Program-made: the position numbers and the translations under genes
The notes under the pieces: model-generated
Told to the model about the DNA's origin: nothing
Databases searched by the model: none
What the model saw: only the letters and a program-made list of their open reading frames with translations
From: Betaproteobacteria bacterium
Lineage (GTDB): Bacteria > Pseudomonadota > Gammaproteobacteria > Burkholderiales > Casimicrobiaceae
Assembly: GCA_005881895.1 (NCBI GenBank)
Contig: VBCG01000005.1
Coordinates: 2,595 to 41,233 of the forward strand
Reading direction: 5' to 3'
DNA: 38,639 nt
Shown: positions 3,558 to 20,088 of the stretch, piece by piece
Layout: each line of letters opens with the position of its first letter
How positions within the stretch are numbered: the first letter of the stretch is position 1

Positions 3558-4323
3558 ACACGCCGGGCGCAGCGGCAATCACTTCGTTGGTTCGCAGGAA
3601 TTCGGTGCCGCCGGCAAAATCGCCGACGCGTCCGCCGGATTCGTTGACGAGAAGCGCGCCGGCGGCGACGTCCCACGCGCGTAAGCTCGTCACCCAGAAA
3701 CCATCGAGCCGTCCCGACGCCAGATGCGCGAGGTCGAGCGCGCATGCACCCGCACGGCGAACGCCCGCGCATTGCTCGACGAGCGCCCCGAATACCGGCA
3801 GATAGCTCGCGAGCGCCGGGCTCTTGCGCGGCGGAAAGACGGTGCCGACCAGCGCGTCAGACAACCGCGTGCATGTCGACACGCGCATTGGCGCACCGTT
3901 GCGTTGCGCGCCTTTGTCCCTGATTGCGGTGAAGAGCTCGTCATGCGCCGGATCGAGGATCACCGCGTGCGTGATTTCGTCGCTCTTCGCGAGGGCCACC
4001 GAGACTGCGAAGTACGGAAAGCCGTGCACGAAATTGAGGCTGCCATCAATCGGATCGACGATCCAGCGATACGGTGATTCGGGGTTGCCCGCTTTTACCT
4101 CGCCCGAGTCTCCGGTCAGAATCGCGTGCTCGGGGAACGCCGCCGAAATCGTCGCCACGATTGCGCTTTCCGCTTCGGAATCCGCCGCCGCGACAATGTC
4201 GCCATGCTCTTTGGAGAATGTCGGAAGGCGGCGAAGATCGCGCGACGCGTCGATGATGACGCTGGCGGCGCGCCGCGCAGCGCGAACGGCGACGGCCAGG
4301 ATGGGATCGGAGGTCGTGTTCAC
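3514..4323 (-). CDS. Inositol monophosphatase family protein (SuhB-like) with altered metal ligand
   Basis: A 269-residue protein of the inositol monophosphatase/SuhB family, starting at GTG 4323 (MNTTSDPILAVAVRAARRA), 10 nt after the oxidase stop. A TTG at 4341 is a possible longer start. The second metal motif DPIDGSLNF sits at 90-98, and the third motif WDVAAG carries Asp218. In SuhB the first motif reads ITEESGE, where the first Glu binds metal. Here the aligned segment reads LTGDSGE (69-75), so that Glu is replaced by Gly71 followed by Asp72. The enzyme may use a shifted ligand or have reduced activity. It is the last gene of a minus-strand row with the oxidase and TonB receptor. A link to copper or PQQ metabolism is not evident. 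Confidence 0.85.
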   Translation of the reverse strand: MNTTSDPILAVAVRAARRAASVIIDASRDLRRLPTFSKEHGDIVAAADSEAESAIVATISAAFPEHAILTGDSGEVKAGNPESPYRWIVDPIDGSLNFVHGFPYFAVSVALAKSDEITHAVILDPAHDELFTAIRDKGAQRNGAPMRVSTCTRLSDALVGTVFPPRKSPALASYLPVFGALVEQCAGVRRAGACALDLAHLASGRLDGFWVTSLRAWDVAAGALLVNESGGRVGDFAGGTEFLRTNEVIAAAPGVFNPLREAIVAALPA

Positions 4324-4333
4324 AGCGTCAGAA

Positions 4334-5930
4334 TCACGCAACTTTCACGCCAAGCATCATGCCGCCATCCTCGTGCTCGAGATTGTGGCAATGGAACACG
4401 TACGTTTGCGGGCCGGAAAACGGCATTGCGAACCGAATCGCGACGTTCGCCGGGCCAGACGAGCACGGTGTCTTTGCGTCCGAGATCGGCAGCGAGCCGC
4501 CCACGCTCGTCGATCGCATGCGCGTGGACGAAATCCGGCGAGGTTTCACGCTCGAGTATCTCGAAATGAAAGCCGTGCAGATGCATCGCGTGCGGCATGC
4601 TGGTGTGGTAGTTGCGCAGGAGCCAGATTTCCGTCGAATCGCGCGCGACTTCGATCGGCGTCTCACCCATGACGAAGACGCGATCGTTGATCCGCCAGCG
4701 GCCTTTGTTGAAGCCCAGCCGAAACGGCCTCTCGCGCGCATTTGACGTGTCGGTTGGCACAACGCTGGAGAACGATGACGGAATGTGGCGATCATAGACG
4801 ACATGCTCGCGCACACGTAACTGGAGCAACGCTCGTGCGATACCTTCAGGCCACGCGCTGCCATGATCGTGTGCGGCGTGTTCGGTTGCCGTCGCGCCCG
4901 TCGTCTCGGTATGCATCGGATCGAATGCAAGCGATTCGAGCACCAACGTCTCGCCGACCGGCGCATCGCGCAAATCCACCAGAATATCGAGGCGCTCCGC
5001 TGTCGCAACAAAAGCCTGTTCGGCACGCTGCGGCGCGGGCAAAAGACCGCCATCGTTACCGATGACGATAAATGGAATCCGTGCCGACGCGGAGCCGCGC
5101 AATGCAAGCCGCAACGTACGTGCATTGCAGGCATTGAGAATGCGCAATCGATAGACGCGCGACGCGACATCGAGATACGGGCATCGCGTGCCATTCACGT
5201 AGAGCTCATCGCCGAAAAAACCGTGCATCAGGTCTGCGGCGGACGGCAGATATGAAGAGTCCGCTTTGCGATCCTGCATCACCAGCGCGATTTCGCTGCG
5301 GCCGGGCACAAGGTCGAGCGCCTTGCGGAGCGAATCTTCGTCGTCGTCCTCGAGTGCGATCGCGCCGTACAGACCGTTGTACATCTGCCGCGCCGTCTCC
5401 CCATGCGGATGCGGGTGATACCAATAAAGGGCGCCCCGGTCTGTTGCCGCGAAATCGTAGGCATAGCTTTCGCCGGGTGCGACCAGATTCATCCCGGCGC
5501 CGTCGTTGTGGGTGTCGACTGCCAGGCCGTGCCAGTGGGCGATCGTCGGTTTGTCGAGGCGGTTGACAAGCTCGATCTGCACGCGCTCGCCGCGGCGAAC
5601 GACGAGCGTTGGATTGATGTAATCGCGACCTTTGTGCTGCGCGCGATACGCGATCGGACCGTGCACGATGCCGGGAGGCAAGGCCCCAACCGCGCTGGCG
5701 ATCAGCGTCAGCGGCTTGCCACGCAGCGCGAGTCGACCGAGATAACCGCTATCGCCCGGAATAAATAGCGTGGTTGCTTTGCCGTCGCCCGTCGTACAAA
5801 AATCGGCGCCCACTGCGGAATCGGATTGCGTCGGACGGAAGACTCCGGCGAGACCGAGAGCGCCGATACTTTGCAAAAAGTAGCGGCGCGAAGCGCGGTT
5901 CGAAGGATTCGTCGAAGGGAGTCGTCGCAT
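4334..5930 (-). pseudogene. Tat-exported multicopper oxidase, frameshifted near the 3' end
   Basis: A periplasmic multicopper oxidase of the CueO/CopA/bilirubin-oxidase type. The N-terminus carries a Tat motif SRRYFL at 14-19 followed by a hydrophobic stretch. Copper motifs are HWHG at 132-135, YHPHPHG at 171-177 and HLHGFHFEI at 450-458. The last motif, HCHNLEHEDGG, is encoded in a different frame. The first frame runs through DTVLVWPGER (ending at residue 496), and the continuation AIRFAMPF...HCHNLEHED is read from the next frame and stops at 4334. The unshifted frame runs to 4320 with a non-homologous tail. The shift maps to about 4441-4446 and fits loss of two bases from a GTGT-like stretch. 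It is either a real inactivating mutation, since the type 1/type 3 copper ligands would be lost, or a sequence error. The gene follows the TonB receptor by 9 nt. Confidence 0.85.
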
Positions 5931-5939
5931 CGAGCAAGT

Positions 5940-8237
5940 CTAACGCGCGTCGGCATGCCTCGAGTCGAACGCATAGCGCAATCCGACCCAAACGCCGCGC
6001 GGCGCCCCTGGTGCGCGAAATTGTCCGGCCACAGGATCAACGCCGTTGGCAGGCCCGAAGCTGCCGCCGGGTCCGGTAAAGGCATTTGCCCCGAGAAGCG
6101 CAAGACTTTGGTAGCGACGGTCGAACAGGTTGTTGACGAGCATGAACAGCTGCAGCTCCCGCGTCGCTTGATAACGCGCGTCGAGATGGACGACGGTGTA
6201 CGCGGGAAGGCGACCGTGAATGTCGGCATTGTTGTCGTCGCCGAGCGCATATTGCGATGATGCATAAACAACGTTGATGCCGACTGAAATCAAATCGCTG
6301 GGTTCGTAAGCACCACGCAATTTCGCCGAGTCGCTCGGAATGCCGGGAATACGGTCGCCCGGCTGCACGGTGATCGCGCCGTTTGCGTCGGCGCCGGAAT
6401 TGTTCGGGCTCGCGGCGGTGAACGTCGAGCGGAACGTTGCATCGATGTGGTTGTAGCGGAGATTGAGCGACCAGTCCGCGACGCGCGTCGCCGCGTTGAG
6501 CTCGATCCCTTGGCGGCGGGTACGGCCGACGTTCTGAAAATAGCCGGCGTTCGTTGCGCCGCTGCCGCTCGCGATAAACGCGATGTCGTCGTACGAGTCA
6601 GTCCGATACACCGCCAGCGACCAGCTCGTCGCGGCGCCGAACTTTCCACGCGCGCCGCCCTCGATGGTCTTCGCCACCACTTTCGAGAGCGGCGGGTCGG
6701 CCAGAAACTGGTTCGGTAGTTTGCACGGTGCCGTCGGATCGGCGCAGGTGAGCTCGATCGGCGTCGGCGCGCGCATTCCCTCGTTGTAACCGGCGTACAC
6801 CGTCAGCGTCTGGCTTGGATTGTAGTTGGCGCCCACCGCGGGATTGAAGCGCGAGAACGTGTGCGTGCCGTTGAGAGCTTCGTCTTCGCCGGTACGATCG
6901 GTGATCGACACGCGCGCATGGTTGTAGCGGCCGGCAAGCGTGAGCGTCCATTGTTCGGACAGCGCAATCGTATCGGTCGCAAAGACGCCGACATAATCGT
7001 TACGAAGATCGGCGTCGGTCTCGGTGGCAAACGCACCCGTGGCGAATGTGCCGCGGTCCGGCGTGAAATTCGCCGTCTGCGACTCTTGCATGAACCGCGT
7101 GCGCCCGAAATCGCCGCTGGTTCCGACCACGAGCTGATGCGCATAACCGTAAAGCTTGCCGCTTGCGGTCAGTTGTGTGCCGATGCCCCAGCTGGATTGG
7201 TCAATCGTCGCGCGATCGTTGGTGGCTTCATTCGTTTGCGGCATTCCGGTTTGCGGATCGATTTCGCCGTAATCGTCATTCACGTTGCTGCTGAAGTTGC
7301 TTGTCCGGTAGCGGCGGTAATAAGCATTGCCGCCGAGCAGCAGCGTATCGCTTAGAAAACGGCTTCCTTTTGCCGCGATAAACGTGAGCCGGTTCTCGTT
7401 GATGTCGGGATACGTGTAGGCCTGTTTCGGGTTCGACAACAACGACAGCGGCAAGGTCTGCGTGCCTTGCAGCGAGTTGTCCGCAAGCGTGGCGCTGACA
7501 TCGAAGTCGGTGATCTCGTCCTGATAGCCGACTTTGCCGAAGAATTGCTTGACGCGGCTCGGGTTGTGCTCAGCCCAGCCGGCGTCATCGGCGAAATGGC
7601 CGGTCGCGTAGTAATCGATGCGATCGCCCTTTCCGCCGTACTCGAACACGGCATCCTTGCGACGAAATGATCCACCGGAAACTTCGACCGACGCCCCCGG
7701 ATATTGCGCGCCGCTCTTCGTATAAATTGCGAGCGCGCCACCCAGCGTGTTCAATCCGAACGCCGAAACCGAACCGGGAATCAACTGGACGCTCGATATC
7801 GCCGACGGCGGAATCAAATCCCAGTTGACGACGTCGCCGAACGCCTCGTTGATCCGTACGCCGTCCTGAAAGACAGAGACGCCCTGTGGCGTCCCGAGCA
7901 GCGGCGAGGCGGCGAAGCCGCGAAAATTGAGCGACTGCTGGAACGCATTGCCCTGGCCCGCCGCGGCGTTGACGCTGTTCGCGTTCTGATCGAGGAACTG
8001 CGTCAATGTCGGCGGCCGCTGATTCGCGATCGCGCGATTGCCAAACACCTGAACGTTCGCCGGCACGTCGCGGAGCGCTGAGCCAAGGCCTGGAAGCGGC
8101 GTCGTACCGATGACCTCGACGGCAGGCAACTCGAACGCCTCGGCCGGATTTTCGGCTGCTGCTGTGGCCATCGGCGTCCCGCTTGCCAGCAGCGCAGCCA
8201 GAAGACCGCCGACGCGGCGCGTCGCGAAGGGACGCAC
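5940..8237 (-). CDS. TonB-dependent outer-membrane receptor (first of two)
   Basis: A TonB-dependent receptor of about 765 residues. It has a signal peptide (MRPFATRRVGGLLAALLA, ending around TAAA), a short TonB-box-like region LPAVEVIGTTPLPG, a plug domain and a 22-strand-type barrel ending in a terminal aromatic strand (GLRYAFDSRHADAR tail). The start is uncertain. GTG 8237 gives a clean signal peptide, while the frame stays open to TTG 8279 inside the upstream gene. A 17-bp sequence is duplicated across this start (see repeat). It lies 20 nt after the YncE-like gene and 9 nt before the multicopper oxidase, so the three are probably one transcript. The substrate is unknown. Iron or copper chelates, or a cofactor related to the neighbouring PQQ system, are possible. 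Confidence 0.88.
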   Translation of the reverse strand: MRPFATRRVGGLLAALLASGTPMATAAAENPAEAFELPAVEVIGTTPLPGLGSALRDVPANVQVFGNRAIANQRPPTLTQFLDQNANSVNAAAGQGNAFQQSLNFRGFAASPLLGTPQGVSVFQDGVRINEAFGDVVNWDLIPPSAISSVQLIPGSVSAFGLNTLGGALAIYTKSGAQYPGASVEVSGGSFRRKDAVFEYGGKGDRIDYYATGHFADDAGWAEHNPSRVKQFFGKVGYQDEITDFDVSATLADNSLQGTQTLPLSLLSNPKQAYTYPDINENRLTFIAAKGSRFLSDTLLLGGNAYYRRYRTSNFSSNVNDDYGEIDPQTGMPQTNEATNDRATIDQSSWGIGTQLTASGKLYGYAHQLVVGTSGDFGRTRFMQESQTANFTPDRGTFATGAFATETDADLRNDYVGVFATDTIALSEQWTLTLAGRYNHARVSITDRTGEDEALNGTHTFSRFNPAVGANYNPSQTLTVYAGYNEGMRAPTPIELTCADPTAPCKLPNQFLADPPLSKVVAKTIEGGARGKFGAATSWSLAVYRTDSYDDIAFIASGSGATNAGYFQNVGRTRRQGIELNAATRVADWSLNLRYNHIDATFRSTFTAASPNNSGADANGAITVQPGDRIPGIPSDSAKLRGAYEPSDLISVGINVVYASSQYALGDDNNADIHGRLPAYTVVHLDARYQATRELQLFMLVNNLFDRRYQSLALLGANAFTGPGGSFGPANGVDPVAGQFRAPGAPRGVWVGLRYAFDSRHADAR

Positions 8238-8257
8238 GCGTCGCGAAGGGACGCACG
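8222..8257. repeat. 17-bp direct repeat, 19-bp period, at receptor start
   Basis: TCGCGAAGGGACGCACG occurs at 8222-8238 and again at 8241-8257. The copies span the gap between the beta-propeller stop and the receptor start, and continue into its first codons. The 19-bp period is not a multiple of three, so the duplication changes which start codon is in frame. Confidence 0.9.
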
Positions 8258-9208
8258 TCAGTGAATCGCAACGCCCCAAGGCAACGAGCCCACCGGAACT
8301 TCGGCGATTTTCTTGTTCGATTCGGTGTCAACGACGGCGACGGCGTCCGATCGGCCGCAGGCGACATAGAGTTTTTTTCCATCGGCGGTAATCGCCATGT
8401 TCCACGGCCGCTTGCCGACGGGAATCGTCGCGACGATCGTATTGCTGCCCGTGTCGATCACCTGAACCGTGCCATCGCCGCCGGACGACACATAGACGCG
8501 CTTTCCATCCGGGTGCACGGTGACCCCGTTGCTGCGTTTGCCGGCCTTGATCCGCGTGATCACTTCATGCGTTTTCGTGTCGAACACGTTGACGGTGTCG
8601 GCGTTTTCCGCGGCGACGTAGGCGCGACTGCCGTCGGGCAAAAAGCCGATTCCCCGCGGCCGGTCTCCAACGGTCACCGACTTGATCACTTCGCCGCGGC
8701 CGACGTCGACGATATCGACGCTGTCGGCCTCCTCGGCGCTCACGTAGAGCCATTTACCGTCGGGGCTGAACACGGCATGCTCGGGATTCTTGCCCTTCAT
8801 CTTGACGCGCCGCGCAATGGTGAGCGTCGAAGCGTCGACGATCAGCACCTGATTGTCTTCCTCGATTGCGGCGGAGAGCCATTTGCCGTCGGCCGAGACG
8901 TAGATCGCTTCAGGCGACTCTCCCAACGTTACTTGCGTGATTTCCGCGTTCTTCCCGGTATCGATGACACGAAGCGCGTTCGCCGTCTGATCGCTGATAT
9001 AAAGCCGTTTGCCATCGGGCGAAATCGCGATCCCGCGAGGCTTCTGTCCGATTTTCATCGTCGATACGACCTTATCCGTGGCAGTATCGATGATGGAGAT
9101 CGACGCCGAGCCCTCGTTGGAGACATAAGCGAAAGGCGCGGCCTCTGCGCCAACGACAGTCGCGCAGCAAACAAGCAGGACGATGGCTGGGAGGAATGAT
9201 GATTGCAT
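8258..9208 (-). CDS. YVTN-family beta-propeller protein, YncE-like, periplasmic
   Basis: A 316-residue secreted beta-propeller. The start ATG 9208 is preceded by a GGAG ribosome site and gives a signal peptide MQSSFLPAIVLLVCC ending near AEAAP. The open frame continues upstream to 9460 but without signal-like sequence. The mature part consists of about seven repeats of the type SPDGKRLY(I/V)S with IDT and VG turns, as in the YVTN family. It is divergent from the YncD/PqqU-like receptor gene, the same pairing as yncE/yncD in E. coli. It is also followed co-directionally by another TonB receptor. YncE has been described as a periplasmic propeller of uncertain role, and a function in handling the imported cofactor would be inference. 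Confidence 0.88.
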   Translation of the reverse strand: MQSSFLPAIVLLVCCATVVGAEAAPFAYVSNEGSASISIIDTATDKVVSTMKIGQKPRGIAISPDGKRLYISDQTANALRVIDTGKNAEITQVTLGESPEAIYVSADGKWLSAAIEEDNQVLIVDASTLTIARRVKMKGKNPEHAVFSPDGKWLYVSAEEADSVDIVDVGRGEVIKSVTVGDRPRGIGFLPDGSRAYVAAENADTVNVFDTKTHEVITRIKAGKRSNGVTVHPDGKRVYVSSGGDGTVQVIDTGSNTIVATIPVGKRPWNMAITADGKKLYVACGRSDAVAVVDTESNKKIAEVPVGSLPWGVAIH

Positions 9209-9278
9209 GCGAATTCTCCGGAACGGCGCAAGGCGCATGATGCGTTTCTTGGCTGCGCCTGCTCGCTGAAAATTGGAT

Positions 9279-9307
9279 ATGCTAACGGGGATTGCGTGGG
9301 ATGATAA
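9279..9307 (-). promoter_or_regulatory. Weak sigma70-like promoter for the beta-propeller operon
   Basis: On the minus strand TTATCA (9302-9307) and TAGCAT (9279-9284) are separated by 17 bp. Each matches the consensus at four of six positions. The pair lies in the 139-bp divergent region between the YncE-like and PqqU-like genes. I see no convincing Fur box in this region. Confidence 0.3.
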
Positions 9308-9347
9308 CGAAAGCGACCCATTGGGCATTTGACAGTCGCTTGTGTAC

Positions 9348-11438
9348 ATGATGCGAATCCATTGGCGGGTCGGAACAATCTGTTTGGCGTTCCTGTCTAC
9401 GCCGGTCTGGGCGCAAGCAGAGGCCCCCGTCCCGCTAGAGCCGATCGTCGTGACCGCCACGCGTCACGAAGAACGCGCCTTCGACGTGCCGGCGTCGGTC
9501 GACATCATCACGGGTACGGTGATCCGCGATGGTCAGCCGGCCGTCAACATATCGGAAACGTTGCCGCGCGTGCCGGGCGTCTTCGCAGCGAATCGCCAGA
9601 ACTACGCGCAGGACCTGCAAATCAGCTCGCGCGGCTTCGGTGCGCGTGCGGCATTCGGTGTGCGTGGCGTGCGCCTTTACCAGGACGGCATTCCGGTCAC
9701 GATGCCTGACGGACAGGGACAAACCGGCAGCTTCAGTCTGCTGTCGGCCGAACGGATCGAGGTCCTACGCGGCCCGTTCTCGACGCTATACGGCAACGCG
9801 TCCGGCGGCGTGATCTCCGTTTTCAGCGAAAGCGGTACGCCCGAGCCGGCGCTGACGCTGAGCGGTGGGGCGGGCAGCTACGACATGTGGACCGCCGGCG
9901 CCAAGCTCCGCGGCACAGCAGGCAATGTCGGTTATGTGGCGGCGGTGAGCGAATTCCAGACCGATGGCTATCGCGATCACTCGTCGGCCCGGCGCGATCT
10001 CTTCAACCTGAAGCTGCGCTTCGATCCCACCGACGCGACGCACGTCACGCTGATCGGCAATTATCAATATCAGCCCGAAACGCAGGACCCGCTCGGGCTG
10101 ACGCGCGCACAGTGGGACACGAATCCGCGCCAGGTCGATCCGTCGGCGCTCCAGTTCGACACGCGCAAGACGATCGACCAGACGCAGGGCGGCGTCGCGG
10201 TCGATCATCAGTTCAATCCTGACACGACGCTTCACGTCGCCTCGTACGTCGGACGCCGACTGATTCGGCAGTACCTTGCGCTAAGGGGTGAGGTACCCGC
10301 CACGTCCTCCGGGGGTGTCGCCGATCTGGATCGCGATTTCGGTGGCGTGGGCGCGCGGGTCTCGTGGCGGACGCAGGCGCTCGGCGGTCCGCTGACGCTC
10401 ACCGTCGGCGCCGACGCCGATCGGATGAAGGAGCATCGCCAAGGCTTCGTCAACAACAACGGCGTGCTCGGCGCTCTGCGCCGCGACGAGGATGACACTG
10501 TCCGGAGCGTCGACGCTTACGCTGAAGCGGAATGGCGCTTTGCGCCCGCGTGGGCCGCCACCGTCGGCGTGCGCTCGAGTGTCGTGAACTATGACTCTGA
10601 CGATCACTACGTCACGCCCGCCAACCCCGACGACAGCGGCTCGCGCAAATTTCGCAATACGAGCCCTGTCCTCGGCCTCGTTTTTCACGCTACACCCGAC
10701 GTCAACCTGTACGCGAGCTACGGAAACGGCTTTGAAACACCGACGTTTGCCGAGATGGCGTACAACCCGACCGGCACCGGACTCAATCTCGCGCTGAATC
10801 CCGCGACAAGCCGCGCGGTGGAAGTCGGCATCAAAACGGTGATCGCGCAGAAACATCGGATCAATGCCGCCCTTTTTCACATCGACACCGACGACGAGAT
10901 CGTCACCGATACCGCAACGGGCGGCCGCACGACGTTCAAGAACGCCAGCAAGACGCGACGCAATGGCGCGGAACTTCTATGGGATGGCGAGTTGCCGGCC
11001 AACCTCCACGCCCATGTCGCGCTCACGTATCTGCGCGCGGTTTTTGTCGATTCATTCACGACGGGGCTTCCGCCACTGCCGGTCGCGTCTGGCAACAAGC
11101 TGCCGGGCGTGCCGCCGCAGCAGGCATATGGCGAGCTGACGTGGACGCCGGGCCGCTGGGGCGGCTTCAACACGGGGGTTGAAGTGCAATATGTCGGAAA
11201 GCTGTACGTCAACGACCGCAACACCGATGCTGCGCCTGCTTACACTGTGACAAATCTTCGCGCCGGTTTAGCCCAACGTGCGGGTCGCGCGACGTTCACC
11301 GAGTTCGTGCGCGTCAACAACGTGTTCGATCGCCGCTACGCCGGTTCCGTCATTGTCGGCGACACCAACGGACGGTTCTTCGAGCCGGCGCCGGGTCGCA
11401 ATTGGTTCATAGGTGCAAGCATCGATGTCGCCATCTGA
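9348..11438 (+). CDS. pqqU: TonB-dependent receptor, PqqU/YncD homologue (PQQ uptake)
   Basis: An outer-membrane receptor of 696 residues with signal peptide MRIHWRVGTICLAFLS...VWAQA, TonB-box region EPIVVTATR, plug and barrel. Many blocks match E. coli YncD as I remember it: NRQNYAQDLQ, GFG, DGIPVTMPDGQGQT, EVLRGPFSTLYGNASGGV, FDTRKTIDQTQ, SDDHYVTP, GFETPTF, DTDDEIV, GGRTT(F/Y)KNA(S/G)KTRR, GSVIV and NGR(F/Y)(F/Y)EP(A/S)PGRN. YncD has been shown to import pyrroloquinoline quinone and renamed PqqU. The gene is divergent from a YncE-like gene as in E. coli, and a PQQ dehydrogenase gene lies 1.5 kb downstream. ATGs at 9348 and 9351 are both possible starts, and no strong ribosome site is seen. 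Its stop overlaps the b561 start by 14 nt. Confidence 0.9.
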   Translation: MMRIHWRVGTICLAFLSTPVWAQAEAPVPLEPIVVTATRHEERAFDVPASVDIITGTVIRDGQPAVNISETLPRVPGVFAANRQNYAQDLQISSRGFGARAAFGVRGVRLYQDGIPVTMPDGQGQTGSFSLLSAERIEVLRGPFSTLYGNASGGVISVFSESGTPEPALTLSGGAGSYDMWTAGAKLRGTAGNVGYVAAVSEFQTDGYRDHSSARRDLFNLKLRFDPTDATHVTLIGNYQYQPETQDPLGLTRAQWDTNPRQVDPSALQFDTRKTIDQTQGGVAVDHQFNPDTTLHVASYVGRRLIRQYLALRGEVPATSSGGVADLDRDFGGVGARVSWRTQALGGPLTLTVGADADRMKEHRQGFVNNNGVLGALRRDEDDTVRSVDAYAEAEWRFAPAWAATVGVRSSVVNYDSDDHYVTPANPDDSGSRKFRNTSPVLGLVFHATPDVNLYASYGNGFETPTFAEMAYNPTGTGLNLALNPATSRAVEVGIKTVIAQKHRINAALFHIDTDDEIVTDTATGGRTTFKNASKTRRNGAELLWDGELPANLHAHVALTYLRAVFVDSFTTGLPPLPVASGNKLPGVPPQQAYGELTWTPGRWGGFNTGVEVQYVGKLYVNDRNTDAAPAYTVTNLRAGLAQRAGRATFTEFVRVNNVFDRRYAGSVIVGDTNGRFFEPAPGRNWFIGASIDVAI

Positions 11439-11937
11439 CCGTTACACGCGCACTGCGGTAATTCTGCATTGGCTGATCGCCGCGCTGTTGCTGGTCGAAG
11501 TTGCGCAGGGCTGGTTGATGCAGGAAATCCCGAAGCAGCCGCCCGGCTTGCGGGCCGATCAGTTCAATCTCCATAAGTCGTTCGGGCTCGTACTTTTTGC
11601 CTTGCTTCTCGTGCGCCTTGGCTGGCGATTGCTGAATCCACCGCCGCCGATGGTCGGTGTCGCACGTTGGCAAATGCGGGCCGCCAAGACGAATCACGCG
11701 ATCCTCTACATCGCAATGCTGGTGCTTCCGCTGTCGGGCTATCTCGGATCGGTGTTCAGCGGTTATCCGATCAAGTGGTTCGGCATCATGCTGCCGTCGT
11801 GGGGCACGCAGAACGCCGCGGTCAAGGATCTGATGAGCACGGTCCACTGGGCAACGAGCTGGATATTGGTTGCGTCGACCACGCTGCATATTGCGGGCGC
11901 GCTTAAGCACGAGCTTGGCTTGCGGGACAGCATGTGA
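11425..11937 (+). CDS. Cytochrome b561 family protein
   Basis: A 170-residue inner-membrane dihaem b-type cytochrome with four hydrophobic helices. Candidate haem ligands are His15 (ILHWLIA), His50 (NLHKSFG), His141 (VHWATSW) and His155 (TLHIAGA), as in CybB-type b561. The start ATG 11425 lies inside the receptor gene (14-nt overlap), so the two are translationally linked. It probably moves electrons between the quinone pool and a periplasmic acceptor. Its tight coupling to a PqqU-like receptor next to a PQQ dehydrogenase suggests a role in that electron chain, which is inferred from position only. Confidence 0.88.
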   Translation: MSPSDRYTRTAVILHWLIAALLLVEVAQGWLMQEIPKQPPGLRADQFNLHKSFGLVLFALLLVRLGWRLLNPPPPMVGVARWQMRAAKTNHAILYIAMLVLPLSGYLGSVFSGYPIKWFGIMLPSWGTQNAAVKDLMSTVHWATSWILVASTTLHIAGALKHELGLRDSM

Positions 11938-12020
11938 TGGCGCGAATGTCCCTCCACCGCGGTTTACGACGCGCGTCTGCTCGGGCGCCGCTCGCGACGC
12001 CGCCGTCGGCCTGATAAGCG

Positions 12021-12764
12021 CTACGGTCGTTCAGCGATCTGCGCCAATAGCTGCGCAGTTTCGTCGTGCTTCGCGTCGCGCGCGATATCGGCCGCCGTTT
12101 TCCCGCGGTTGTCCTTGAGGCTTGTTTTCGCGCCCGCCGCCAGAAGCATCTTCACGGTTTCCGTTCGGCCGTAGCCGGCGGCCCACATGAGCGCCGTCAG
12201 ATCGTTCGCATAGGCGGCGTTCGGGTCGACACCCTTGTCGAGCAGCAGCTTGACGATGTCGGAGCGTCCTTCGCCCGCCGCATAGATGATCGCGTTCTTC
12301 TTTAGCCGATCGACGACGGCAATATCGGCACCCTTGGCAACGAGGGTGCGGGCGATTTCCGTGTGACCGCCGTAGGCGGCCGTCATCAGCGGCGTCACAC
12401 CGTTAATTGCCGCTTGATTGACGTCGGCGCCGGCGTCGAGCAGCACGCGCGCCAAGTCGACACGATCCTTTTTCAGCACGATGATGAGCGCACTTTCGCC
12501 CAATCGATTCCGCGAATTGACGGCGGCGCCTTGCTGCAACGCGCGTGCGATCGCCGGTCCATCGGCATTGCGCGCCGCGACGAGCAGCTTCGCGTTCAGC
12601 GGCAAATCGTCATCGGACGCTCGAACGGCGGTCGCCGCCATCGCCATGAGCACCGCGAGAATCGAACCAAGGACGCGAAAGCCGGCGCCGTTGCTGCGGT
12701 GCAATAGAGCGCTATGGCGTCGGGAATCTGGAACGAGTCCTCGCGTAAAGGCACATGAAATCAT
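12021..12764 (-). CDS. Ankyrin-repeat protein, probably exported
   Basis: A 247-residue protein with a hydrophobic segment at about 32-48 (VLGSILAVLMAMAATAV), followed by four to five ankyrin repeats. These show typical units such as GVTPLMTAAYGGHTEIARTL, DLTALMWAAGYGRTE and VKLLL-KGVDPN. The ATG is preceded by an AAGGAAG ribosome site. The N-terminal segment fits a signal peptide or single anchor with an unusually long charged front, so a slightly later start cannot be excluded. The gene is convergent with b561 and divergent from the PQQ dehydrogenase. Exported ankyrin proteins often accompany periplasmic redox enzymes such as catalases. A protein-interaction role is likely, but the partner is unknown. 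Confidence 0.85.
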   Translation of the reverse strand: MISCAFTRGLVPDSRRHSALLHRSNGAGFRVLGSILAVLMAMAATAVRASDDDLPLNAKLLVAARNADGPAIARALQQGAAVNSRNRLGESALIIVLKKDRVDLARVLLDAGADVNQAAINGVTPLMTAAYGGHTEIARTLVAKGADIAVVDRLKKNAIIYAAGEGRSDIVKLLLDKGVDPNAAYANDLTALMWAAGYGRTETVKMLLAAGAKTSLKDNRGKTAADIARDAKHDETAQLLAQIAERP

Positions 12765-12816
12765 CGGCTTCCTTTGCGGTTTTATGAGGGAGGCGCGCGC
12801 GGCGGCGAGCTGTAGA

Positions 12817-12845
12817 TTGCAACGCGCGCAAAAACTGACTATAAA
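12817..12845 (+). promoter_or_regulatory. Sigma70-like promoter of the PQQ dehydrogenase gene
   Basis: TTGCAA (12817-12822) and TATAAA (12840-12845) are separated by exactly 17 bp, about 85 bp upstream of the dehydrogenase ATG. It is the best promoter match I found in the window. Confidence 0.6.
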
Positions 12846-12896
12846 CCATGCTGCATCATGGTCTTGGGGGACTTCGCGCGCTCCTCGTCGCGAAGT
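12845..12896 (+). other. Operator-like palindrome and 5'-UTR hairpin before the PQQ dehydrogenase
   Basis: ACCATG-CTGCAT-CATGGT (12845-12862) is a 6-bp inverted repeat over the expected transcription start. ACTTCGCG (12871-12878) pairs perfectly with CGCGAAGT (12889-12896) across a 10-nt loop and would fold in the leader RNA. The first could be a regulator site and the second a leader hairpin. Neither matches a regulatory element I recognise. Confidence 0.45.
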
Positions 12897-12929
12897 GAGA
12901 CGTCCTTAAAAATTTCAGTGGAGGGTGTA

Positions 12930-14642
12930 ATGAACCACCGAATCACGATCGCCGTCGCCGCAGTCGCGTTCGCATTGAGCGTCGCCGATGTCGGCGCGCA
13001 AGAGACCGGTGCAGCGACGACGAGCGCCAAGCCGATGTCGGGCAATTTGACGTCGATTTCCGACGTGATGCTGCAAAACGCCGCGAGCGATCCGAAAAAC
13101 TGGATCCATCCGAACGGCAATTACGCGAACACACGCTATTACCCCGGCGCGCAAATTACCGCGGCCAACGTTGGCAAGCTCACGCCCAAGTTTGTGTTCC
13201 AGACCGCGGTGCTGGAATCGATGGAAACCGCACCGATCGTCATCAACGGCGTGATGTTCCTGACGACGTCGTTCAACCATGTCTACGCGATCGACGCGAC
13301 AACCGGCGAGGAGTTCTGGCATTACAAGCACAAGATGGGACCGATCACGACGTTCTGCTGCGGTCCCAACAATCGCGGCGTTGCCGTGTCGGGCGACACG
13401 TTGTACATGGGGACGCTCGACGCAAAGCTTGTCGCGCTCGATGCGAAGACCGGCAAGGTCCTATGGGAGAAGCAAATCGCTGATCCCGACAAAGGCTATT
13501 CGGAAACGATGGCGCCGGCCGTCGTCGACGGCAAGGTGCTGATCGGCACGAACGGCGGCGAGTACGGCATTCGCGGCTTCGTCAAGGCATACGACGCGAA
13601 GACCGGCGAGCTGTTGTGGACGTTCTATACGATCCCTGAAAAGAGCGAAGGCGATTGGGCCGTGAACGACCTGACCGGGCGCAACATGCATCGCAATATC
13701 GATGCGGAGAAGGCTGCGTACGCGAAGGACAGCTCGTTTTATCAGACGCTCGGCGGGGGTGTATGGATGACGCCCGCGGTCGATCTGAAGACGCGCACGG
13801 TGTTCTTCGTGGCCGGCAATCCGTCGCCGGACTTGTATGGCGCGATTCGTCCGGGCGACAACCTTTATACGAACTCGATGGTCGCGGTTGATTTGGACAA
13901 GGGCACGTACAAGTGGCACTCACAATACATCGCGCATGACGTGTGGGACTTGGACGCGGTAAGCCCGGTCATCCTCACGCAGGCAAAAGACGCGAGCGGG
14001 AAGATGGTCGACGTCGCGATCCACGGCGGCAAGACGGGACACGTCTACGTGCATGAGCGCGGCACCGGCAAGCTGGTCCGCTTCTCGGAAGCGATGATCC
14101 CGCAAGAAAACATGTGGGTGCTGCCGACGAAAGAGGGCGCGCGAATGCTGCCCGGCGCGAACGGTGGCGTCGAGTGGTCACCGATGGCGATCAATCCGAA
14201 GCTGCGGATGGCGTATGCCGCCAATCTGCATCAACCGATGACCTACCATGTCGAAGAGTCGCCGTATCCGGGCGGCAGCAAGCTGTGGCTTGGTGGCGCG
14301 TTCAAGGTGATTCCGAGCGAGCAGCAGTGGGGCCGGCTCGTCGCGGTCAATATCGATACCGGCAAGGTCGCGTGGGGCGCGAAAACGCCGCAGCCGCTGA
14401 TCGGTGGCGTGCTCGCGACGGCGGGCGATCTCGTGTTCAACGGTGAAGCGAACGGGTGGTTCAAGGCGTTCGATGCACGTAACGGCAAGGAACTGTGGAA
14501 GTACAACTGCGGCGCAGGCGTCAACGCGCCGGCGGTGTCGTACATGGTCAACGGCAAGCAATATGTCGCAGTCGCTGCCGGCGGCAACGTGCAGATCGAC
14601 GCGAAGCGCGGCAATAGCGTGTTCGTGTTCGCGCTGCCTTAA
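12930..14642 (+). CDS. PQQ-dependent dehydrogenase (methanol/ethanol dehydrogenase family), periplasmic
   Basis: A 570-residue quinoprotein. The start ATG 12930 has a GGAGGG ribosome site and a signal peptide [24 protein letters not shown]. The eight-bladed propeller W-motifs are seen as repeated DA(K/T)TG(K/E)xxW units. Active-site features are the vicinal disulfide Cys143-Cys144 (TFCCGP), Glu211 (GGEYGIRG), Asn297 (AGNPSP) and the catalytic Asp340 in HDVWDLDAV. Asp342, two residues after the catalytic Asp, is the position that distinguishes lanthanide-dependent XoxF from calcium MxaF. However, glucose-dehydrogenase-like quinoproteins also have DxD. There is no C-terminal cytochrome domain, and a separate dihaem cytochrome c follows. 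The substrate is probably an alcohol or sugar and cannot be fixed from sequence. Confidence 0.9.
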
Positions 14643-14723: not shown

Positions 14724-15302
14724 ATGAATAACGCCATTCTTACCGTTGTTGGTCTGGCCATTGCGATCGCGTCAGCCGATGCCCGGTCCCAGGCGGATGC
14801 TGCCGTCAAGGACAAGGCGCAGACGTGCGCCGCGTGCCACGGCCCGAACGGCAATTCCACCGATCCGCAGTACCCAATCCTCGCCGGTCAAACGGCGCGG
14901 TACATTTTTCTCGAGCTGCGCGATTTCAAGGCGGGCCGCCGGCACGATCCGCAAATGGATCCGATGGCGGGCAATCTCACGCCGGACGACATGCTGGCGC
15001 TCGGAGACTACTTTTCGAAGCAGACCAAGGCGCCGAACGGCTTCAACGCCGACGGCGGCAAGGTTGCCCTAGGCGCGAAAAAATCCGACGAGGTGCTGTG
15101 CACGATGTGTCATGGGGGAGGTTTCCTTGGACAGAACGAGATTCCGCGCGTCGCGGGTCAGCACTACGCGTATATCAAGAAGCAGCTCGCCGATTTCAAG
15201 GCGCGCCGGCGCACAAACGACGCCGGCAACATGACGAGCGTCGCCGGCACGCTGTCCGACGCGGACATCGAGAACTTGGCGCAGTACCTCGCGAACCTCT
15301 AG
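14724..15302 (+). CDS. Dihaem cytochrome c (c4-like), periplasmic
   Basis: A 192-residue secreted cytochrome with signal peptide MNNAILTVVGLAIAIASADA. It has two haem-binding motifs, CAACH at 35-39 and CTMCH at 126-130, in two similar halves of about 90 residues each. Each half has a LAGQ/VAGQ element and a candidate Met ligand (MAGNLTPDDM; NMTSVAGTLSDADI), as in cytochrome c4. It is the natural electron acceptor for the PQQ dehydrogenase immediately upstream. No clear ribosome site is seen before the ATG, and a strong terminator lies just upstream, so its expression may be lower or separately controlled. Confidence 0.9.
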   Translation: MNNAILTVVGLAIAIASADARSQADAAVKDKAQTCAACHGPNGNSTDPQYPILAGQTARYIFLELRDFKAGRRHDPQMDPMAGNLTPDDMLALGDYFSKQTKAPNGFNADGGKVALGAKKSDEVLCTMCHGGGFLGQNEIPRVAGQHYAYIKKQLADFKARRRTNDAGNMTSVAGTLSDADIENLAQYLANL

Positions 15303-15434
15303 GCGGCGGACGAACGTTCCGCTCGGCGCTTTGCGCCTGTGACGACACTTTGCGTCGATTTTCTCGAAGCAGTATCCTTGCCTTCCGCCCGACCCGCTCA
15401 CGGGGCGTGCGGCGCCCACAGTAGAGGAGGCCAC

Positions 15435-15908
15435 GTGTCCATTCCCCTTGCATTGACCGTCAACGGCAAAGCCGTGAAAGCGGACATCGATCCGCGACTT
15501 CTGCTCGCCGATTTCCTGCGCACGACGCTTGGATTGACCGGGACGCACATCGGTTGCGATACCGCGCAGTGCGGCGCGTGCACGATTCATCTCGACGGTC
15601 GCGCGATCAAATCGTGCAACGTGCTGGCGCTGCAAGCGCAGGGCGCCGACGTCGTCACGATCGAGGGTCTCGCCGAGTCCGATGGCACGATGCATCCGAT
15701 GCAGGCGGCCTTCAAGGAATGTCACGGCTTGCAGTGCGGCTTTTGCACGACCGGCATGGTGATGAGCGCAATCGATCTCGTCGCGCGACATCCGAACGCC
15801 GATGAGAAGACGATTCGCGAAGAGCTCGAGGGCAACCTGTGCCGCTGCACCGGTTATCACAACATTGTCAAGGCGGTGCAGCAGGGTGCCGCCGCGATGG
15901 CGAAATAG
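15435..15908 (+). CDS. coxS: Molybdenum hydroxylase small (2Fe-2S) subunit, CoxS-like
   Basis: A 157-residue iron-sulfur subunit. The start GTG 15435 is chosen for the perfect GAGGAGG ribosome site 4 nt upstream (15424-15430). An in-frame start at 15339 would add sequence with no family resemblance. The N-terminal plant-type ferredoxin cluster ligands are Cys41, Cys46, Cys49 and Cys61 ([11 protein letters not shown]). The C-terminal cluster ligands are in the CGFCTTG and CRCTG motifs. It passes electrons from the molybdenum centre of the large subunit to the FAD subunit. It begins the cluster, with the large subunit starting 14 nt after its stop. Confidence 0.93.
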
Positions 15909-15922
15909 GGAAGGTCGCGATT

Positions 15923-18289
15923 ATGGGCGCAATCGAGTCAGGATTCATCGGCCAATCGGTCCGGCGCAAGGAAGACGCGCGCTTCCTGCTGGGCGCCGGC
16001 CAATACACCGACGACGTCACGTTGCCGAACCAGACGCACGCGTATTTCCTTCGCTCGCCGCACGCGCACGCGAAGATCCGCGGCATCGACACGGGCAAGG
16101 CGAAGAAAGCGCCGGGCGTCATCGCCGTTTATACGAGCGCCGACCTCGAAGGCGTGAACGGGCTGCCTTGCGGTTGGCTCATCACCGACGTGGACGGCAC
16201 GCCGATGAAGGAGCCGCCTCATCCTGTGCTCGCAAAAGGCAAAGCTCGTTACGTCGGCGACCACGTCGCGCTCGTCATCGCGGAGACGCAGAACCAAGCG
16301 AAAGACGCGGCCGAGCTGATCGACGTCGATTACGAAGTGCTGCCGGCGGTCGTGAATGTCGTCGACGCGTTGAAGCCGGGCGCGCCGCAGATCCATGACG
16401 AGGCACCCGGCAACAAGTGCTACACGTGGGCAATCGGCGACAAGAGTGCGGTCGATGCGGCGTTCGCGAAGGCGGCGCACGTGACCAAGCTCGACATCGT
16501 CAACAATCGCCTCGTGCCGAATGCGATCGAGCCACGCGCGGCGGTCGCAACGTACAGCCGCGCCGACGATAGCTATACGCTTTACGTCGCGAATCAGAAT
16601 CCCCACGTCGAGCGCTTGCTGATGACGGCGTTCGTGCTGGGCCTTCCCGAGCACAAGGTTCGCGTCATCGCGCCCGACGTCGGCGGCGGTTTCGGCTCGA
16701 AGATTTATCTCTATGCCGAGGAAACGGCGATGGTGTGGGCGTCGAAACGCGTGAACCGGCCGATCAAGTGGGCGGCCGAGCGCAGCGAATCGTTTCTCTC
16801 CGATGCGCATGGCCGCGATCACGTGACGCATGCGGAGCTGGCACTCGACAAGGACGGCAAGTTTCTCGCGTTACGCGTCCACACGACGGCGAACATGGGC
16901 GCGTACCTGTCGACGTTCGCGTCATGCATTCCGACCATTCTTTACGCGACGCTATTGGCCGGCCAGTACACGACGCCCGTTGTCTATTGCGAGGTGACGG
17001 CGGCTTTCACGAACACCGCGCCGGTCGACGCCTATCGCGGAGCCGGTCGTCCCGAAGCGACGTACGTGATCGAGCGGATCGTTCACCAGGCCGGCGCCGA
17101 AATGGGTATTCCGCAAGACGAAATCCGCCGGCGCAATTTCATTCGCACGTTTCCGTATCAGACGCCCGTGGCGCTGCTGTACGACACCGGCGGGTACGAC
17201 GCCTGCCTCGACGAGGCGATGCGGATCGCCGATGTCAAAGGGTTTGCGGCGCGCAAATCCGACGCCGCGAAACGCGGCAAGCTCCGTGGGTTGGGCTACG
17301 CAGCGTATATCGAAGCCTGCGGAATCGCGCCGTCCAACGTCGCGGGCTCGCTCGGCGCGCGCGCCGGATTGTTCGAGGCCGGCGAAGTGCGCGTCCATCC
17401 GACCGGCAGCGTGACGGTCTTTACCGGCTCGCACAGTCATGGCCAGGGCCATGAGACGACCTTCGCCCAAGTCGTCGCCACGCGCCTCGGTATCCCGATC
17501 GAAAACGTCGACGTCGTCCACGGCGATACGGGACGCGTCCTGTTCGGCATGGGCACGTACGGCTCGCGGTCGCTGGCCGTCGGCGGAACGGCCATCGTGA
17601 AGGCGCTCGACAAGGTCATTGCAAAGGGCAAGAAGATCGCCGCCCATCTGCTCGAAGCCGCAGAATCCGACATCGAATTCAAAGACGGCAAATTCACCGT
17701 TGCAGGGACGGATCGCAGCAAGGCGTTCGGCGAGATCTCGCTCGCGGCGTACGTGCCGCACAACTATCCGCTGGACAAGCTCGAGCCCGGCTTGAACGAG
17801 ACGGCGTTCTACGATCCGACCAACTTCACGTTTCCCGCTGGCACACACATCTGCGAAGTGGAGGTCGATCCCGACACGGGTGTCGTGTCGATCGTCAGTT
17901 TCAGCGCGTGCGACGACTTCGGCAACATCATCAACCCAATGATCGTCGAGGGCCAAGTGCATGGCGGGTTGTGCCAGGGGATCGGGCAGGCGATGCTCGA
18001 GCATTGCATCTACGACAGTGAAAGCGGGCAACTGCTGACCGGCAGCCTGATGGATTACGCATTGCCGCGCGCGGACGACGTTCCATCGTTCAAAGTGGAA
18101 ACGAAAGTGACGCCGTGCACGCACAATCCGCTTGGCGCAAAAGGGTGTGGCGAAGCGGGAGCGATCGGCTCTCCGCCCGCGCTGATGAATGCGGTGATGG
18201 ACGCACTGTCGAGCGTCGGGGTCACGCATCTCGATATGCCGGCATCGCCGCATCGCGTGTGGCAGGCGATTCAAAGTGCTCGGGCTTAA
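15923..18289 (+). CDS. coxL: Molybdenum hydroxylase large subunit, CoxL form II type
   Basis: A 788-residue molybdopterin-cytosine-dinucleotide subunit of the xanthine oxidase family. The start ATG 15923 is chosen because the upstream extension overlaps coxS in another frame. The active-site loop reads AYRGAGR at 370-376. True form I CO dehydrogenases have AYxCSFR with the copper-binding Cys, so this is form II or another aldehyde/heterocycle hydroxylase. Other family marks are DVGGGFGSK (about 252-260), [10 protein letters not shown] and the catalytic Glu in [10 protein letters not shown] near the C-terminus. It assembles with the adjacent S and M subunits in the cytoplasm. CO, aldehydes and N-heterocycles are all possible substrates, with aldehyde or heterocycle oxidation more likely than CO. 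Confidence 0.93.
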
Positions 18290-18300
18290 GGAGCATCACT

Positions 18301-19095
18301 ATGTACACGTTCGAATACCAACTTCCGAAAACGCTCGCCGACGCTGCAAAGGCGCTTGCGAGCACGGGCGGCAAGCCGCTCGCAGGCGGGCAAAGTCTTG
18401 TCGCAGCGATGAAGCTTCGACTTGCACAACCCGGCACGCTCGTCGACCTTCGCGGCATTTCCGAATTGGCCGGCATTCGCAAAGAAGGTGACGCCCTCGT
18501 GATCGGCGCGATGACGCGGCATGCCGACGTGGCCAACTCGGCGGTGGTGAAGGGCGCGATCCCGGCGCTCGCCGTGCTTGCCGACGGCATCGGCGATCGT
18601 CAAGTGCGCAACATGGGCACGCTCGGCGGCTCGATCGCCAACAATGATCCTGCCGCGGATTGGCCCGCTGCGGTTGTTGCGTGCAACGCGACGGTCCAGA
18701 CGAACAAGCGCAAGATCGCCGCCGGCGATTTCTTCAAGGGCATGTACGAAACGGCGCTTGGAGCGGACGAGATCATCACGGCGGTTTCGTTTCCGATCCC
18801 GAAAAAGGCGGCGTACGCGAAGTTTCCCAATCCAGCATCGCGATTCGCGCTGGTGGGCGTTTTTGTCGCGCAGTTGGCGGACGGCAGCGTGCGCGCCGCT
18901 GTGACAGGGGCCGCGCCTGCGGTATTTCGCGCCGCGCCGATCGAAACCGCGCTCGCGAAAAGTTTCACGCCCGATGCAGCGAAAGCGGTCAAGGTCGACG
19001 CGAAGGGATTGAACAACGATCTGCATGGCTCCGCAGCCTATCGCGCTCATCTCGTCTCGGTCATGGCGGGCAGAGCAGTGGCGGCGGCTGGATGA
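18301..19095 (+). CDS. coxM: Molybdenum hydroxylase medium (FAD) subunit, CoxM-like
   Basis: A 264-residue FAD-binding subunit of the CO dehydrogenase/xanthine oxidase family. The AAGGAG ribosome site overlaps the coxL stop, and the ATG is at 18301. FAD motifs are AGGQSLV (about 32-38) and the NMGTLGGSIANNDPAADWPA segment (about 104-123). It takes electrons from the CoxS clusters to an outside acceptor. It closes the three-subunit structural set, here in the order S-L-M, whereas the classical Oligotropha order is M-S-L. A strong hairpin follows 36 nt downstream. Confidence 0.92.
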   Translation: MYTFEYQLPKTLADAAKALASTGGKPLAGGQSLVAAMKLRLAQPGTLVDLRGISELAGIRKEGDALVIGAMTRHADVANSAVVKGAIPALAVLADGIGDRQVRNMGTLGGSIANNDPAADWPAAVVACNATVQTNKRKIAAGDFFKGMYETALGADEIITAVSFPIPKKAAYAKFPNPASRFALVGVFVAQLADGSVRAAVTGAAPAVFRAAPIETALAKSFTPDAAKAVKVDAKGLNNDLHGSAAYRAHLVSVMAGRAVAAAG

Positions 19096-19131
19096 CACGA
19101 TAAAGGCCTTCGCTCCGGTCGATGTATTCTG

Positions 19132-19168
19132 TCGGGCGGCGGACATAAATCCGCCGCCCGATTCTTTT
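19132..19168 (+). terminator. Strong hairpin between coxM and coxD
   Basis: TCGGGCGGCGGA (19132-19143) pairs perfectly with TCCGCCGCCCGA (19150-19161) across the loop CATAAA, followed by TTCTTTT. It resembles a terminator with a weak T-tract. It ends 2 nt before the coxD ATG, occupying the place of a ribosome site. Confidence 0.75.
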
Positions 19169-19170
19169 CG

Positions 19171-20088
19171 ATGAAGCCTTCAGCGCATCCCGCCACCGTC
19201 GACGCGACGCTCGAACTGCTCGAGCGACAGGATTACATTGCCGATCGCCGTCTTGCGACCGCGGTGTTCCTGTCATTGAACATGGCGCGGCCGCTTTTTC
19301 TCGAGGGCGAAGCGGGTGTGGGCAAAACCGAGATCGCAAAAGTGCTTGCCACCGGACTCCGGCGTCGTCTCGTGCGCCTTCAATGCTATGAGGGGCTCGA
19401 CACTGCCGCGGCCGTTTACGAGTGGAACTATCCGCGGCAGATGATCGAGATACGGCTGGCGGAAGCCGCCGGCGGCGTCGAGCGGAGCGAGCTCGCGCAC
19501 GACATTTTCACAACCCGTTTTCTGCTGAAGCGCCCACTGCTGCAAGCGCTCGCGCCGGAGGACGGTGTCGCGCCCGTTCTGTTGATCGACGAGCTCGATC
19601 GCACCGACGAGCCGTTCGAAGCGTATCTGCTCGAAGTGCTGTCCGAATACCAGGTCACGATTCCCGAGCTCGGCCCCATTCGAGCGCAGCAGCCGCCGAT
19701 CGTGGTGATCACGTCGAACCGTACCCGAGAGATTCACGACGCCATCAAGCGGCGCTGTCTCTATCACTGGGTCGATTATCCGGATGCGCGTCGCGAGCTG
19801 GCGATCGTTCGGCGCAAGTGTCCGCGGGCCGCTGAATCGCTCGCGCGCGAAATCGTCGCATTCACTCAGCGGCTCCGCTCGATGGATCTGTTCAAGGCGC
19901 CGGGCATCGCCGAAACGCTGGATTGGGCCGAAGCGTTGCTGGCGCTCGACCGTATCGCGCTCGATCCGCAGACGGTCGCCGACACGCTGGGCGTGCTGCT
20001 CAAGTATCAGGACGATCTGGCGCAACTCGGCCCCGATGTCGCGGCGACGCTCGTCGTGGAGGCGAAGGCGGAGGGCATTCGCCTGTGA
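19171..20088 (+). CDS. coxD: MoxR-type AAA+ ATPase, CoxD-like
   Basis: A 305-residue AAA+ ATPase of the MoxR family, with Walker A GEAGVGKT at 46-53 and Walker B VLLIDELD at 135-142. A sensor-type TSNRTRE element and an arginine-rich ALR/KRRC segment follow. In Oligotropha, CoxD unfolds or remodels apo-CO dehydrogenase so that the active-site sulfur and copper can be installed. Here a role in maturation of the adjacent molybdenum hydroxylase is likely. It pairs with the downstream VWA protein, whose GTG overlaps the coxD stop by 4 nt. No ribosome site is visible; the upstream hairpin reaches almost to the ATG. Confidence 0.9.
   Translation: MKPSAHPATVDATLELLERQDYIADRRLATAVFLSLNMARPLFLEGEAGVGKTEIAKVLATGLRRRLVRLQCYEGLDTAAAVYEWNYPRQMIEIRLAEAAGGVERSELAHDIFTTRFLLKRPLLQALAPEDGVAPVLLIDELDRTDEPFEAYLLEVLSEYQVTIPELGPIRAQQPPIVVITSNRTREIHDAIKRRCLYHWVDYPDARRELAIVRRKCPRAAESLAREIVAFTQRLRSMDLFKAPGIAETLDWAEALLALDRIALDPQTVADTLGVLLKYQDDLAQLGPDVAATLVVEAKAEGIRL

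Follow-up and report, generated by a model that had tools for sequence, protein, structure and literature searches.

We analysed a 38,639-nucleotide stretch of DNA (here called the window) from Betaproteobacteria bacterium (GTDB Gammaproteobacteria; Burkholderiales; Casimicrobiaceae), which covers positions 2,595-41,233 of the forward strand of contig VBCG01000005.1 in assembly GCA_005881895.1 and encodes a TonB-dependent receptor of the PqqU type close to a dehydrogenase that depends on pyrroloquinoline quinone (PQQ). We think it likely that these genes form a locus for scavenging and using cofactors, in which PqqU feeds the PQQ dehydrogenase and a divergent operon probably supplies a lanthanide. 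Judged from the sequences, the well-supported part of this reading is import of PQQ through PqqU for the dehydrogenase beside it. The reading starts from the identity and signature residues of the receptor, the intact PQQ and metal site of the dehydrogenase with its D-x-D motif, the lack of a match to PqqC, PqqD or PqqE in the organism's own genome, and a conserved linkage. The following course is what we infer for PQQ transport, the alcohol oxidised, the flow of electrons and the part played by the second arm. PqqU would take free PQQ over the outer membrane with energy from TonB, and the periplasmic dehydrogenase would bind it and oxidise an alcohol. Electrons would pass from the dehydrogenase to a diheme cytochrome c and perhaps to cytochrome b561, and a coxSLM-like enzyme would probably oxidise the aldehyde further. 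The divergent operon, with its propeller, second receptor and oxidase, would probably supply the active-site metal, most likely a lanthanide.

PqqU and the adjacent dehydrogenase

A preliminary description of this DNA had called the receptor starting at 9348 PqqU-like, and model score, signature residues and tree agree on this. Specifically, the receptor scores 653.9 bits on the PqqU model NF041535 (the next TonB model scores 184), matches the Escherichia coli PqqU structures 6v81 and 9c4o with E values of about 1e-160, and is identical to E. coli PqqU at 286 of 680 aligned residues (42%). It keeps equivalents of Q84, Y99 (as F), Q121, K274, R304, Q308, R365, Y481 and R536. The signature of PqqU given by Munder et al. 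(2025; PMC12124388; this and the other papers are cited from excerpts) is Y/F/W99, R304 and R365 in E. coli numbering, and it is present in the window receptor as F105, R306 and R366. In a tree of 86 receptor rows, rooted on 14 other receptors, the window receptor falls inside the PqqU clade, which comprises 72 rows including E. coli PqqU and has a support of 1.0 (rows L076, L086 and L097 were dropped before counting, the same places being entered as L119, L118 and L120). The signature occurs in 69 of these 72 rows, the window included and L077, L078 and L088 being those without it; a subclade of 40 rows, of which 39 have K at 274, joins E. coli PqqU and the window receptor with a support of 0.94. 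A receptor from a Thiobacillus metagenome-assembled genome is 50% identical to that of the window. By sequence, signature residues and tree position, then, identification of the window receptor as PqqU is well supported.

The dehydrogenase scores 465.7 bits on TIGR03075, just missing the cut-off of 480.05, and its best solved relatives are 6zcv and 6zcw (PedH). It keeps the adjacent cysteines 167-168, E235, N321, the catalytic D364, and D366. The sequence D364-L-D366 is of the D-x-D form (the catalytic Asp and an Asp at +2) that has been described as the signature of lanthanide-dependent PQQ alcohol dehydrogenases (PMC11996626), including in a comparison of PedH with PedE (PMC5487730), and the enzyme is accordingly worded here as a predicted user of lanthanide. 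Two other PQQ-dehydrogenase-like proteins of the same genome (L110 and L111, on contigs C229 and C53) lack these two neighbouring cysteines at the positions aligned with them.

Beyond the dehydrogenase, the loci of the family have the diheme cytochrome c adjoining it and the cox genes conserved together with it. The large cox subunit carries the sequence AYRGAGR, which we take to be the form II motif and which makes an aldehyde- or alcohol-related enzyme likelier than a carbon-monoxide dehydrogenase; we set the latter aside on this ground. The coxSLM-like enzyme is the probable next oxidation step. The genes labelled coxM, coxD and coxE are presumably such, judged by their position.

PQQ biosynthesis and conservation of the locus

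The organism's own genome is 96% complete and holds four PQQ-dehydrogenase loci. The profiles for PqqD (PF05402), PqqE (TIGR02109) and PqqC (TIGR02111) found no match in it; PqqA and PqqB were not searched genome-wide. In a control set of 14 genomes PqqD was matched in three, PqqE in all 14 but never over its cut-off, and PqqC in none, so that a scan of 73 genomes (71 PqqU carriers plus G020 and G021; 28 of the 73 belong to the family), which found PqqC in 19, 18 of them over the cut-off, was taken as the positive control for PqqC. Because there is no match to PqqC, PqqD or PqqE and yet there are four PQQ-dehydrogenase loci, scavenging of PQQ, which the preliminary description had put forward as a possibility, is the best reading, and the organism probably does not make PQQ.

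Among the 28 family genomes, PqqC was found only in G029 and G077, both of a sister genus, and in both on the PqqU contig. In G077 (locus L066), pqqB, pqqC, pqqD and pqqE are over the NCBIfam cut-offs and are accompanied by a PqqA-like peptide; the pqqA-E genes lie between a kinase/regulator pair, which precedes PqqU, and the propeller-receptor genes, and are oriented with the latter. The same order of PqqU, regulator, kinase and pqqA-E is seen in G029 (L112), where pqqABCDE is divergent from PqqU and the genes after PqqU are 76-86% identical to those of L066; the last kilobase of this contig, after pqqE, holds no propeller and no second receptor. PqqU, pqqB-E and a related kinase/regulator pair (47-59%) are also found together in G052, a member of another family. 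Where G077 has pqqABCDE, the window has about 110-140 bp, and in sequence terms it thus resembles a make-or-import locus in its scavenger form. A relic of pqqB-E was sought in this gap and none was found. The earlier statement that the window lacks pqq genes was borne out by tblastn with a relative's pqqB-E, which gave no match better than E 0.03, and we reject the idea of a hidden pqqB-E in the window. Loss of pqq biosynthesis is a simpler story than its gain in the sister genus.

PqqU (E <= 1e-50) was found in 26 of 64 family genomes and an orthologue of the dehydrogenase (71-100% identity) in 16. This orthologue adjoins PqqU or a PqqU fragment in all 14 testable family genomes (contigs end in G016 and G020, which are untestable; in G016 both contigs end in pieces of the ankyrin gene described below), so that the placement of the receptor beside a PQQ dehydrogenase, as first described, holds across the family. 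Within the genus, eight genomes have both PqqU and the dehydrogenase (G021 by a PqqU fragment), 12 have neither, one has PqqU alone (G005) and one the dehydrogenase alone (G020, at a contig end); the dehydrogenase is thus present in 8/9 PqqU carriers versus 1/13 others (Fisher p = 2.4e-4). Because the arrangement recurs across a bacterial family it is more than chance, and a chance neighbourhood can be ruled out. Two of the 12 family PqqU carriers without the orthologue (G030 and G071) have a different PQQ dehydrogenase near PqqU. Outside the family, a PQQ dehydrogenase lies within about 12 kb of PqqU on the same contig in at least four of 45 genomes (G190, G300, G322 and G331), and among the matches listed for these 45 PqqU genomes none directly adjoins it.

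Sixteen loci share the layout of the window (the window, L038-L046, L048, L052, L065-L067 and L113). All 16 have the ankyrin gene in place, between PqqU/b561 and the dehydrogenase, and 12 have cytochrome b561. The divergent arm is more variable. It consists of propeller, receptor and oxidase in the window and L048, of propeller and receptor in L043, L045 (at a contig end) and L066 (at the start of the stretch examined), and of propeller and oxidase in L046, L065 and L067, the multicopper oxidase thus being found in L046, L048, L065 and L067 as well as in the window; L039, L042 and L044 have a receptor without a propeller on the same strand, and L041 has neither propeller nor receptor. We note two further layouts. 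At L040 (G005) another open frame, regulator-like, fills the gap at 6560-8200, and dehydrogenase and cytochrome c are absent; at L116 (G078), coxL comes directly after PqqU and b561, again with no dehydrogenase or cytochrome c, and the ankyrin gene was not found.

The divergent arm and competing explanations

As the preliminary description had it, the propeller heads a second operon with another TonB receptor; a multicopper oxidase follows these two on the minus strand, and the open reading frames (ORFs) overlap or lie 9 bp apart. The description's further statement that propeller and PqqU form a divergent pair as in E. coli applies to the layout and not to the propeller itself, which is 21% identical to E. 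coli YncE and reaches 100 bits on the YncE model NF052280 (cut-off 400). The propeller scores higher on TIGR03866, at 228.8 bits, also short of the cut-off (287.3), and shares 33% identity over 303 residues with a protein of Variovorax that bears the TIGR03866 annotation. We therefore reject it as a YncE orthologue; of the two named families compared, it appears from its sequence to be nearer the PedA2/LutB type than YncE. PedA2 of Pseudomonas putida carries the TIGR03866 family name (PMC12997753) and is part of PedA1A2BC, a La3+ transporter; when this is deleted, the La3+ requirement becomes about 100-fold higher (PMC6839425). Homologues of LutBAH adjoin xoxF1 in Methylocella (PMC9291206), and in Acidobacteria and Gemmatimonadetes a propeller of this kind and a TonB receptor are part of XoxF3 clusters (PMC10875860).

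The second receptor has none of the PQQ-contact residues of PqqU at the aligned positions and is without the PqqU signature, which rules it out as a second PqqU. A plasmid search with it matched 1114 records (E <= 1e-5), in 25 cases over 80% of the length, and nine neighbourhoods were opened from 20 listed matches. A PQQ dehydrogenase is adjacent in three of the nine (H1, H3 and H17) and pqq genes are near the homologue in six (H1, H3, H4, H6, H12 and H17); in Burkholderia and Variovorax plasmids, homologues adjoin D-x-D PQQ dehydrogenases and pqq operons. In the class, homologues (E <= 1e-100) occur in 37 of 370 genomes, at 39 places. Among the 38 loci other than the window, six, from three genera, have a strong PQQ dehydrogenase in the flank, versus 0.62 expected from gene density (Poisson p 5e-5, uncorrected for relatedness), and at one of the six, in G383, the homologue lies beside an XoxF-type enzyme that scores 836 bits to 6dam. 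The same 38 loci have pqq biosynthesis genes in two cases, a propeller in nine and PqqU in three (G201, G300 and G390), and in 16 one or more of these four kinds of neighbour (PQQ dehydrogenase, pqq gene, propeller, PqqU) are present. Propellers of TIGR03866 occur at homologue loci, in L155 and L142 over the cut-off. The D-x-D site of the dehydrogenase and these neighbourhoods together suggest that the divergent arm may import a lanthanide.

We also observed that the homologues at L120 (G390) and L119 (G201), near PqqU, come with their own ExbB-ExbD-TonB and a kinase/regulator pair. L118 (G300), from a distant class member, combines, within about 15 kb, PqqU, a second-receptor homologue, a PQQ dehydrogenase of the D-x-D type and fhcD, a gene of C1 metabolism. 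On plasmids of Paraburkholderia and Caballeronia (L129, L130 and L131) the homologue is preceded by cytochrome b561 and pqqBCDE, and L130 and L131 also have fhc genes; these regions appear to be a methylotrophy island.

Several observations weigh against the reading of the locus as one that imports and uses PQQ with a lanthanide. The window receptor misses the curated cut-off of NF041535 (1200 bits), and two PqqU contact positions differ, N477 being replaced by A and Q310 falling in a gap. These two points would fit a receptor that recognises a molecule other than PQQ and lies beside the dehydrogenase incidentally. We regard this as very improbable in view of the signature residues, the tree position and the linkage to the PQQ enzyme and, in relatives, to pqqABCDE. 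The cut-off was passed by none of 61 relatives and, among 14 controls, by E. coli alone, and was probably chosen to fit near relatives of E. coli PqqU; a Q310A variant is reported as comparable to wild type (PMC12124388). As to linkage, 10 of the 12 family PqqU carriers without the orthologue have no PQQ dehydrogenase in the flanks examined, and in G005 and G078 PqqU lies beside cox genes with no dehydrogenase between. As to the metal, D-x-D separates little because it is frequent among the PQQ dehydrogenases examined (among those that lie close to either receptor and have a readable site, L062 alone has D-x-T). No second receptor accompanies PqqU in L041, L046, L065 and L067, so that it is not indispensable; 3/9 plasmid neighbourhoods (H5, H16 and H18) have neither PQQ dehydrogenase nor pqq genes, and 22/38 homologue loci have none of the four kinds of neighbour in the flanks examined (this number includes L162, where a dehydrogenase-like match is weak). 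Finally, TIGR03863, the binding protein of the lanthanide ATP-binding cassette (ABC) importer, reaches at best 71 bits in the own genome, with a cut-off of 413.6; it is over the cut-off in two of 45 genomes, G201 and G390.

Two alternatives concern the divergent operon. Import and use of PQQ could be right and the operon an iron or copper arm, taking up a ferric siderophore or copper chelate, with an oxidase that handles copper or iron. The best general model for the second receptor is indeed that of siderophore receptors (TIGR01783; 160 bits, below its cut-off of 223.5), the oxidase is CueO-like (211 bits, also below cut-off), propeller and oxidase occur without the receptor in three family loci, and an Ideonella homologue lies near methanobactin-type copper genes. 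We nevertheless think such an arm unlikely: the sole solved match of the second receptor at E <= 1e-3 is the enantio-pyochelin receptor, at E 2e-5, and homologues in other families have an excess of PQQ dehydrogenases beside them. In the other alternative, second receptor and propeller import or handle another form of PQQ, or a PQQ-metal complex, together with PqqU. In G077, propeller and second receptor share a strand with pqqABCDE and continue its line of genes, and homologues lie near PqqU in G201, G300 and G390. Both the missing contact residues and the homologues that adjoin pqq operons and D-x-D enzymes (xoxF-type and others) with no PqqU in the flank examined make this quite improbable. 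A more specific form of the lanthanide reading, which we offer tentatively, is a two-cofactor locus, in which two different TonB receptors would import both components of a single active site: PQQ would enter by PqqU and a lanthanide chelate by a LutH/LanA-like receptor with a PedA2/LutB-like propeller, and the holoenzyme would be assembled wholly in the periplasm of an organism with no PQQ of its own and without the known lanthanide ABC importer, the locus having arisen from a make-or-import cassette by loss of pqqABCDE.

Gene content and comparison with known systems

The genes first described (receptor, propeller, b561, PQQ dehydrogenase and diheme cytochrome c) were each recovered by ORF and profile search. 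The ankyrin gene, which lies on the opposite strand, and the coxSLMDE-like genes had gone unmentioned.

Table 1. Genes and intergenic region of the locus, in window positions
Feature	Position	Strand	Remarks
Multicopper oxidase, last gene of divergent operon	4320..5930	-	PF07732, PF07731; twin-arginine-like N-terminus by eye
Second TonB-dependent receptor, candidate lanthanide-chelate receptor	5940..8279	-	PF00593/PF07715
Exported YVTN beta-propeller	8258..9238	-	ORF open to 9460; likely start 9238 or 9208
Short divergent intergenic region	9239..9347		about 110-140 bp
PqqU-type TonB-dependent receptor, predicted outer-membrane PQQ importer	9342..11438	+	start 9342 or 9348 (9348 likely)
Cytochrome b561	11413..11937	+	PF01292, 95.6 bits; ORF overlaps PqqU end
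Ankyrin-repeat protein	12021..12764	-	PF12796, 152.7 bits
PQQ-dependent alcohol dehydrogenase, predicted	12858..14642	+	PF01011, 277 bits; likely start about 12930
Diheme cytochrome c, probable electron acceptor	14724..15302	+	PF00034, two stretches
coxSLM-like molybdenum hydroxylase and coxD/coxE-like genes	15339..21326	+	small and large subunits by profile scan

Promoter and terminator scans gave signals at chance level, and alignment of the divergent intergenic region gave no convincing conserved operator. The gap between dehydrogenase and cytochrome c holds, at 14665-14692, a strong stem followed by seven T, in a terminator scan that is overall at chance level.

Scavenging of PQQ by PqqU is already published; clustering with a dehydrogenase and the possible two-cofactor design are new. 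A literature search in a limited paper collection found only Munder et al. (PMC12124388) for PqqU with lanthanide and nothing for PqqU with YncE. In this locus PqqU is physically linked to the gene of the enzyme that it probably feeds, sister genomes that differ in pqqABCDE beside PqqU make a natural experiment, and the second receptor is a specific candidate for the uptake of lanthanide by non-methylotrophs; P. putida is described as having no close homologue of the known lanthanide receptors (in the excerpt of PMC6839425).

The window receptor resembles E. coli PqqU (YncD) and the family described by Munder et al. (PMC12124388) in sequence, in the Y/F99, K274, R304, R365 and R536 equivalents noted above, and the window genome is without a match to pqqC, pqqD or pqqE. 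What differs is that PqqU of the window has a PQQ dehydrogenase, cytochromes and another TonB receptor as neighbours; the only synteny of PqqU that the excerpted text of Munder et al. reports is with the biosynthesis operon (four Burkholderiales genomes). The E. coli yncE-pqqU pair likewise has a beta-propeller gene divergent from pqqU, but the two propellers are far apart in sequence and that of the window is the first gene of an operon that also encodes a receptor and an oxidase. PedH (6zcv/6zcw), a lanthanide-dependent PQQ ethanol dehydrogenase, shares with the window enzyme the disulfide pair, the PQQ and metal residues and D-x-D, whereas the latter falls just under the TIGR03075 cut-off and has a diheme cytochrome and the coxSLM-like enzyme as genomic partners. 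In the lut cluster of Methylorubrum (LutH, LutB) and PedA1A2BC of P. putida, as in the window, a YVTN/TIGR03866-like propeller lies beside a TonB receptor and near a D-x-D PQQ dehydrogenase, a likeness of gene layout and propeller. Unlike these systems, the window genome has no TIGR03863 protein over the cut-off, and the window adds PqqU and a multicopper oxidase.

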